The notes below the pieces were generated by a model that saw only the letters and a list, made by a program, of their open reading frames with translations, did not search any database and had not been told where the DNA came from. Shown piece after piece: positions 4,099-5,271 of a stretch of 37,956 bases of DNA. The stretch covers positions 1 to 37,956 of the forward strand of contig CAMOJP010000009.1 of the NCBI GenBank assembly GCA_946617165.1, read 5' to 3'. Position 1 is the stretch's first letter. Each line of letters starts with the position of its first letter. The DNA is from an uncultured Bacteroidales bacterium. GTDB taxonomy: Bacteria > Bacteroidota > Bacteroidia > Bacteroidales > Paludibacteraceae. The translations under genes and the position numbers were made by a program.

Positions 4099-4129
4099 CA
4101 AAAATACTACAAAATATACATATACGCAA
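4099..4129 (-). promoter_or_regulatory. Bacteroidota promoter for the oxidoreductase unit
   Basis: On the minus strand, TTG (4129-4127), a 20-nt spacer and TATTTTTG (4106-4099) match the TTG-N20-TAnnTTTG consensus. The -7 box ends only 4 nt before the ATG at 4094, so the predicted transcription start falls at or inside the start codon. Confidence 0.7.
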
Positions 4130-4158
4130 GTTTTCGGGCATTTTTTTTACTCATAAAT

Positions 4159-4189
4159 TTGTGTATATGCAATTTTTGTAGTACCTTCG
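4159..4189 (+). promoter_or_regulatory. Second, partly degenerate promoter copy upstream of the structured element
   Basis: TTG (4159-4161), 20 nt, then TACCTTCG (4182-4189). It shares an exact 21-base stretch (4164-4184) with the promoter at 4397-4427. The -7 box departs from TAnnTTTG by one base (TTCG). If active, it would transcribe the structured element that follows. Confidence 0.45.
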
Positions 4190-4422
4190 GACGCCGCCTA
4201 CCTACGGCATTCCCCCGAATATACGTTCGTGTCCTGCCGGATATACGCCTGTAAAAAAGGTTTCATTAGATAAAACGTGGACTTGCGCCCACTACGTAAG
4301 CCGGTCTCTTAGCGCTGCTTGTGCAAGCACAGACACCGCTAAAAGACCTCCTTACGAGCGAAATATCGCTCCTTTTGTCTAAAAAAACTTTTTTATTTGC
4401 ATATATGCAATTTTTGTAGTAC
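4164..4422 (+). repeat. 21-bp direct repeat of promoter sequence flanking the structured element
   Basis: The 21 bases at 4164-4184 recur exactly at 4402-4422, 238 bp downstream. Each copy covers the spacer of a promoter and the first three bases of its -7 box. The intervening DNA is the structured element. A tandem duplication or insertion of a promoter-carrying cassette would give this layout. Confidence 0.75.
4186..4395 (+). ncRNA. Candidate structured RNA or MITE-like element with nested hairpins
   Basis: No gene covers this region, but it is full of inverted repeats. Hairpin A is 4186-4219 (TTCGG/CCGAA outer, GCCG/CGGC inner). A closing stem pairs TAAAAAAG (4252-4259) with CTTTTTTA (4388-4395) and TTAGATAAAA (4266-4275) with TTTTGTCTAA (4373-4382, one G-U). 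Inside are GTGG/CCAC (4277-4292), a long hairpin at 4296-4355 (GTAAG/CTTAC, GGTCT/AGACC, TAGCG/CGCTA, TGCTTG/CAAGCA) and GAGCGA-AATA-TCGCTC (4356-4371). The 3' side ends in a T-run. With a promoter at 4159-4189 this could be a small RNA of about 200 nt with its own terminator; a miniature inverted-repeat element is the alternative. I do not recognise it as a known RNA family. Confidence 0.5.
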
Positions 4423-4427
4423 TTTTG
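4397..4427 (+). promoter_or_regulatory. Promoter of the SDR gene, with a palindrome over the -33 box
   Basis: TTG (4397-4399), 20-nt spacer, TACTTTTG (4420-4427). TTGCATATATGCAA at 4397-4410 is a perfect 14-bp palindrome that includes the -33 TTG. The start codon at 4444 lies 16 nt beyond the -7 box, giving a very short leader. The same palindrome at the same distance from the -7 box occurs at 26522-26552. Confidence 0.75.
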
Positions 4428-4443
4428 TGCGGATTAAAGATTA

Positions 4444-5271
4444 ATGGATATGAAAGTTATACTGATTACAGGTGCAAGTAGCGGAATGGGCTACCAGACC
4501 GCCCGGATATTGGCGCAAGCCGGTCACCGCGTTTACGGTGCTGCCCGCCGTGTAGAAAAGATTGAGGAGTTAGCCTCTGAGGGTGTCCAGGCGTTGCGTT
4601 TGGATGTGACGGACGAATCTTCCATTGTGCGTGTTGTGGACGAAGTGATAGCACGCGAAGGCCGTATAGACGTGCTGATTAATAACGCCGGTTACGGCTA
4701 TTTCGGCGCTATAGAGGACGTGCCGATTGCGGATGCCAGACATCAGTTCGAGGTGAATATATTCGGCTTAGCCCGTATGACGCAGCAGGTGCTGCCTTAT
4801 ATGCGTAAACAAGGTTGCGGCCGTATTGTCAATATAGCGAGCGTAGCCGGGCATGTGACGCTTAATTTCGGTGGTTGGTATAACGCTACAAAATATGCTT
4901 TGGAAGCGTTCTCGGACGCCTTGCGGATGGAGGTCAAACCCTTTGGCATCGACGTGGTTATTATTGAGCCGGGTGCTATTCGTACAGACTGGGGCCTGAT
5001 TGCTGCCGACCACTTGCGTGAAAGCGCGCAAGGCGGAGCTTATCAAGAAAAAGCATCGCGTGTAGCTCAGGGGCTGCGACGTATCTATGAATCCAAAATC
5101 CCCACGAACCCCGCTGTTATCAGTAAGAAAATAGCTCATGCAGCCGTGTGCCGGTGCCCTCGGACACGTTATCGGACCGGCCGGGGAGCCAAACTGATGG
5201 TATTGGCGCACACGCTACTCCCCGCCAGATGGTGGGACGCGTTGGTGACGATGTCGATGAGTAAAATGTAA
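4444..5271 (+). CDS. Short-chain dehydrogenase/reductase (SDR)
   Basis: The protein is 275 residues of the classical SDR family. The cofactor motif TGxxxGxG is at 9-16 (TGASSGMG), NNAG at 80-83, the catalytic Ser near 133 (IVNIASVAG) and YxxxK at 146-150 (YNATK). ARR after the second strand suggests NADP(H) preference. The C-terminus (about 200-275) includes ISKKIAHAAVCRCPRTRYRTGRGAKLMVLAHTLLPARWWDALV, typical of oxidoreductases related to mammalian 17-beta-HSD/retinol-type SDRs. The substrate is not determinable. A second ATG at 4450 is an equally possible start. The winged-helix regulator starts 7 nt after its stop, so the two are probably one transcript. Confidence 0.9.
   Translation: MDMKVILITGASSGMGYQTARILAQAGHRVYGAARRVEKIEELASEGVQALRLDVTDESSIVRVVDEVIAREGRIDVLINNAGYGYFGAIEDVPIADARHQFEVNIFGLARMTQQVLPYMRKQGCGRIVNIASVAGHVTLNFGGWYNATKYALEAFSDALRMEVKPFGIDVVIIEPGAIRTDWGLIAADHLRESAQGGAYQEKASRVAQGLRRIYESKIPTNPAVISKKIAHAAVCRCPRTRYRTGRGAKLMVLAHTLLPARWWDALVTMSMSKM

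Follow-up and report, generated by a model that had tools for sequence, protein, structure and literature searches.

The Locus and Its Two Promoters

The window analysed here, that is, the whole stretch of 37,956 nt on contig CAMOJP010000009.1 (GCA_946617165.1, a 1.6 Mb MAG of an uncultured Bacteroidales bacterium, Paludibacteraceae), contains a structured element between an oxidoreductase-like gene and a short-chain dehydrogenase (SDR) gene, the latter named from sequence motifs and from the naming in a preliminary description of this DNA, not from a family search. The layout is as follows.

4099–4129, minus strand: divergent promoter of the oxidoreductase-like gene 4094–3210 (sequence)
4158–4189, plus strand: promoter P1, with TTTG at 4158–4161, N20 and TACCTTCG at 4182–4189 (sequence)
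About 4184 to about 4421: whole element (sequence and folding)
4396–4427, plus strand: promoter P2, with TTTG at 4396–4399, N20 and TACTTTTG at 4420–4427 (sequence)
4444–5271, plus strand: SDR gene, presumed user of P2 (sequence motifs)

The preliminary description had reported two near-identical promoters sharing an exact 21-base stretch at a distance of 238 bp, and all of this is present: the copies, at 4157–4187 and 4395–4425, are 90% identical at that spacing and have the identical stretch TATATGCAATTTTTGTAGTAC in common. A 26-base degenerate promoter motif occurs at only two sites in the window, P1 and P2, where none was expected. The Bacteroidetes promoter consensus is TTTG / TAnnTTTG (PMC7366714), and both promoters conform to this housekeeping consensus at the standard spacing, the boxes being separated by exactly 20 bases; the -7 box of P1, TACCTTCG, is one base off TAnnTTTG. 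P1 points rightward, into the element. Judging from the sequence, P1 is the probable target promoter, its -7 box being completed by the first bases of the element, while P2 would be built from the right end of the element plus the TTTG of the target and presumably drives the downstream SDR gene. Additional inverted repeats at the locus are accounted for by the divergent promoter of the oxidoreductase-like gene, an ordinary neighbour.

The Fold of the Element

When positions 4186–4395 were folded as RNA, the energies were -72.4 kcal/mol for the plus strand (z -6.7) and -85.3 kcal/mol for the minus strand (z -6.2), and none of 200 dinucleotide shuffles matched them; with DNA folding parameters, the core alone reached z-scores of -6.5 (plus) and -7.7 (minus). 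The real sequence thus folds far better than shuffled controls on both strands. Folding recovered the previously proposed closing stem (4252–4275 with 4373–4395), the three hairpins that it encloses and the hairpin at 4186–4219, and it extended the structure beyond the initial bounds by adding to the outer stem a pairing of 4241–4248 with 4401–4408. The components, assigned by folding except where stated, are these.

4184–4249, plus strand: leader module, with the stem TTCGG/CCGAA (4186–4190 with 4215–4219) around a variable hairpin
4222–4248, plus strand: leader motif TACGTTCGYGTCCTGCSGGAYATACRC, found genus-wide and including the hairpin GTCC-TGCC-GGAT
4241–4408, minus strand: structured core, a four-way junction of 168 nt (folding and covariance model)
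4241–4248 with 4401–4408: extension of the outer stem, its right side within the P2 spacer
4252–4275: left arm of the outer stem, pairing with 4373–4395
4277–4292: hairpin 1 (GTGG/CCAC)
4295–4356: central imperfect hairpin, with mismatches at regular spacing
4323–4328: tip of the central hairpin, GCAAGC (G-CTTG-C on the bottom strand)
4357–4370: hairpin 3 (AGCGA/TCGCT)
4373–4395: right arm of the outer stem, T-rich

Copies in the Source Genome and in the Genus

The source MAG contains four copies at unrelated loci, including that of the window, which are about 87% identical over the core and have different flanks. The other three, near-complete, stand before mfd on contig 51, an alpha/beta-hydrolase-like gene on contig 16 and an unknown gene on contig 10, these neighbours being named from their translations and not by family search. 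Elements with other core families are also present, bringing the number in this genome to roughly 11. Three different leader hairpin types stand on near-identical cores (L002, L003, L004 and window 4184–4249), and therefore leader and core modules exchange. Searches of plasmids and viral contigs gave no match for the feature, and in Rfam no family scored above the gathering threshold, a permissive threshold yielding only chance microRNA-like matches.

BLAST against 36 genomes of the same genus found the leader of the window with other cores behind it, and found no match for its core. Scanning genome contigs for the exact leader gave matches confined to Bacteroidales/Paludibacteraceae MAGs, and those with a stated source point to ruminants. 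With up to three mismatches allowed, the leader motif was present in 56 of 178 genomes of the genus, with up to 11 copies each, and the reversed motif used as control had no match in the genus genomes. The sample comprised 118 elements, 107 of which carry a promoter (TTG-N16 to 22-TAnnTTTG) at the right end; the cores of these 107, selected for ending in a promoter, fell into 13 clusters with mutual similarity undetectable by blastn at E 1e-4. The commonest -7 box among these selected elements was GTACCTTTG (56 of 107). About 60% of the cores measure 155–171 nt, and nearly all clusters with full-length cores share the four-way junction, made of the outer stem, a hairpin, a long mismatched central hairpin and another hairpin. 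The tip of the central hairpin is usually GC[AG]AGC across clusters, and a promoter ends the element. Two single-member clusters (L018 and L230) are short and lack the four-way junction. A second size class lies near 255 nt, its members (L054 307–580, L207 and L085) differing in a central hairpin that is GC-rich and much larger, while the ends are unchanged.

Several arrangements depart from the plain order of leader and core. At L066 (5452–5684, G160:C7 293452–293684), three head-to-tail leader units of 103 bp, each with its own TTTTTGTTGTATCTTCGG junction, precede a single core, and similar clusters were seen at G150:C65, G151:C47 and L214. At position 1501 of L130, the core is missing and the leader is joined straight to the promoter end, possibly representing a minimal unit. 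In G093, G150 and G135, several copies are found a few hundred bases or less from the end of a contig, and the repeat therefore probably breaks MAG assemblies of this genus.

The family thus consists of short, protein-free, promoter-bearing repeats of gut and rumen Bacteroidales, located in front of genes and previously undescribed, no description having been found in Rfam or in the literature searched.

Selection on the Fold and the Strand Kept Foldable

Cross-family alignment with MAFFT and RNAalifold proved unsuitable, because the stems of unrelated families fall out of register, and an alignment within one subfamily was used instead, together with a covariance model. Among the 26 members of the subfamily that was sampled best, double compensatory changes affect 26 of 49 pairs, 95.4% of cells are paired, compared with 35–59% in slid controls, and no shuffle attains any of the covariation measures. 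The covariance model R1, derived from this subfamily with the window family left out, finds the window at 4241–4407 on the minus strand (43.2 bits, E 1.5e-7) and recovers nearly every complete core tried from other, sequence-unrelated families; the four copies of the window family contribute three further double changes. The search of the genome and its relatives proposed in the preliminary description has thus produced both covarying homologues and repeat copies. The fold is selected, and one architecture is kept while the sequence diverges.

A second line of evidence concerns the strand. Stem mismatches were counted without allowing GU pairs and as an average over the two strands; the single mismatches, read on the top strand, were AC 117, CT 85 and CC 37, versus GT 29, AG 3 and GG 2. 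AC, CT and CC are the least stable mismatches, and their bottom-strand equivalents, GT, GA and GG, the most stable. A separate count on the bottom strand gave GU 70 versus AC 22. Of 69 cores, 67 had the better folding energy on the bottom strand, as did all 11 of the 11 clusters, the cluster-level sign being the safer number since the strand counts include related copies. Composition explains part of this bias, shuffled cores differing by -4.4 kcal/mol, which is smaller than the real difference. The types of mismatch and the energies therefore indicate that the strand kept foldable is the bottom one.

One reading of this bias is that the bottom strand encodes a structured RNA, which would be antisense to the promoter region and belong to a dispersed multi-copy RNA gene family. 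The strong covariation and the GC-GU-AU wobble intermediates, typical of RNA helices, speak for it, as does the conserved tip, G-CUUG-C being a stable RNA tetraloop. Against it, no conserved bottom-strand promoter was seen in the elements. The lone candidate, in the right end, with YATTTTTT as -7 box 20 nt after a TTG, was rejected because this box covaries with its partner in a stem (C/T, A5 columns 21/150), and the candidate start falls inside the outer stem, itself conserved. We consider this RNA reading unlikely.

Position before Genes and Evidence for Mobility

Of the 38 elements whose flank was long enough, 37 have an ORF within 250 nt downstream. Left flanks commonly show TA, one or two bases and then the leader TTCGR, and a -33 TTG at promoter distance is found in 18 of 36 testable left flanks, versus six expected. 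Such a position would also suit an insulator, that is, a terminator plus promoter of benefit to the host, spread by recombination or gene conversion and not by a transposase; the T-rich stem followed by a promoter at the element end, and the swapping of leader types between near-identical cores, agree with it. However, the constant core size and the bottom-strand bias would be left unexplained, and recombination requires homology, which is absent from the flanks, so that an insulator is quite improbable.

The mfd gene occurs in nearly all of the genomes. Its promoter carries elements in the source genome and in G022, but a plain promoter or none precedes most of 30 orthologues; therefore, the element comes and goes. 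In the G022 copy (L118 1247–1500), the left half of the element enters the mfd coding sequence and there is no right end, which probably reflects a deletion or a chimeric assembly. The SDR gene has a different element in G004 and none in G026; its orthologues at 82% identity stand in other contexts and hence provide no empty site. No clean orthologous empty site was obtained by base-by-base alignment, as the intergenic DNA is too diverged.

The bases shared between the two sides of the element are at most TA/GTAC, which any promoter supplies. CTTCGG... at one end and ...GTWGTAC at the other do not form an inverted repeat, and the palindromic outer stem begins inside the leader. The suggestion of a MITE-like insertion that duplicated a promoter largely holds: the element is multicopy, dispersed and protein-free, as a classical MITE is, and has a promoter at its right end, but it shows neither classical terminal inverted repeats (TIRs) nor a clear target duplication. 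We conclude with high confidence that this is a real, dispersed and structured repeat family of the MITE/REPIN-like kind.

The Search for a Mobilising Enzyme

Candidate enzymes were sought in genomes that are incomplete MAGs, in which single absences carry little weight. The Y1 transposase (PF01797; IS200/IS605, RAYT) was absent from the source genome (G000, 80% complete) and from G093 (95% complete, 11 element copies), the IS110 transposase (PF02371; bridge-RNA elements) from 10 of 13 genomes, including G000, G093, G033 and G152, and reverse transcriptase (PF00078; retroelements and retrons) from 11 of 13 element-rich genomes. Integron integrase (TIGR02249) gave only sub-cut-off matches, likewise in all 14 control genomes. 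Being absent or inconsistent in element-rich genomes, none of these four fits as the mobiliser. The IS91/Y2 transposase (PF04986) had no match, but the controls were silent too. No protein-coding carrier was found among the 118 copies, and no element has an ORF. As for an autonomous version, the copies without a right end proved to be tandem units, truncations at contig ends, or degraded or atypical right ends, and L069, considered as an autonomous copy, runs into the neighbouring gene.

Interpretation and Comparison with Known Systems

We favour, as somewhat better than an even bet, the view that the feature in the window is one copy of a non-autonomous mobile DNA family whose members insert into ordinary promoters at the -7 box. 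On the mechanism of mobility, our confidence is moderate. The element would enter the -7 box of the target promoter, its left end (CTTCGG..., the leader) joining the left half of that promoter and its right end (...TTTGCRTATRTGCAATTTTTGTWGTAC) restoring a promoter before the gene, so that the insertion would not silence it; the folded single-stranded bottom-strand DNA would be handled by an enzyme supplied in trans. The more specific proposal, that a family defined by its single-strand fold and not by sequence specifically enters open -7 boxes as folded bottom-strand DNA, rebuilds the promoter and is moved by a recombinase, is speculative and, in our estimate, rather doubtful. The least probable reading is one that the preliminary description had envisaged, a small RNA on the top strand, some 200 nt long, that would run from P1 to the T-rich outer stem: P1 is a good, suitably placed promoter and a T run closes the structure, but the A-C, C-T and C-C stem mismatches are of the wrong kind for such an RNA and suit the bottom strand, which is the one kept foldable and folds better in nearly all cores, P1 varies across elements with its -33 box often missing, and Rfam offers no match.

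A mobile DNA family of this kind has several known relatives in form. REPINs, mobilised by RAYT, are non-autonomous intergenic REP sequences with imperfect ssDNA/RNA hairpins and a variable interior, forming a population in each genome (PMC8049555). The present element shares these traits, including an imperfect hairpin foldable as a single strand; unlike REPINs, it is much larger (about 240 bp with the leader), has a four-way junction and a right-end promoter, and is accompanied by no RAYT/Y1 transposase in the source genome or in G093. The BrickBuilt repeats of Porphyromonas gingivalis, also one of the Bacteroidales, are intergenic and MITE-like, with a leader, a tail and promoter activity, and possess IS5-like terminal inverted repeats and a body of 23-nt tandem repeats (PMC4596501). 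The likeness lies in the MITE-like intergenic nature, the leader and the promoter, whereas our element lacks such TIRs and has a conserved cloverleaf-like fold.

The Correia repeats of Neisseria are MITEs of about 100–150 bp that place promoters before genes, fold into hairpins and have terminal inverted repeats and a TA duplication. The MITE-like nature, the promoter placement and the hairpins are shared; the present element differs in its asymmetric ends, its proposed -7-box target and the lack of conservation of its core sequence. In integron attC sites, structure is conserved without sequence and the bottom strand of an imperfect hairpin is the folded substrate, a likeness that extends to all three traits, although no GTTRRRY/RYYYAAC boxes were recognised by eye, there are no cassettes and no integron integrase exceeded the cut-off. 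What is unusual for a repeat of the MITE/REPIN-like kind is the restoration of a promoter and the conservation of the fold and not of the sequence.

If this view is right, many promoters in a large genus of rumen and gut Bacteroidales bear a mobile folding element, which would inform the evolution of promoters there and would also bear on breaks in MAG assembly, many copies being at contig ends. Unrelated sequences sharing one fold would make the machinery that reads this fold a directly testable question.
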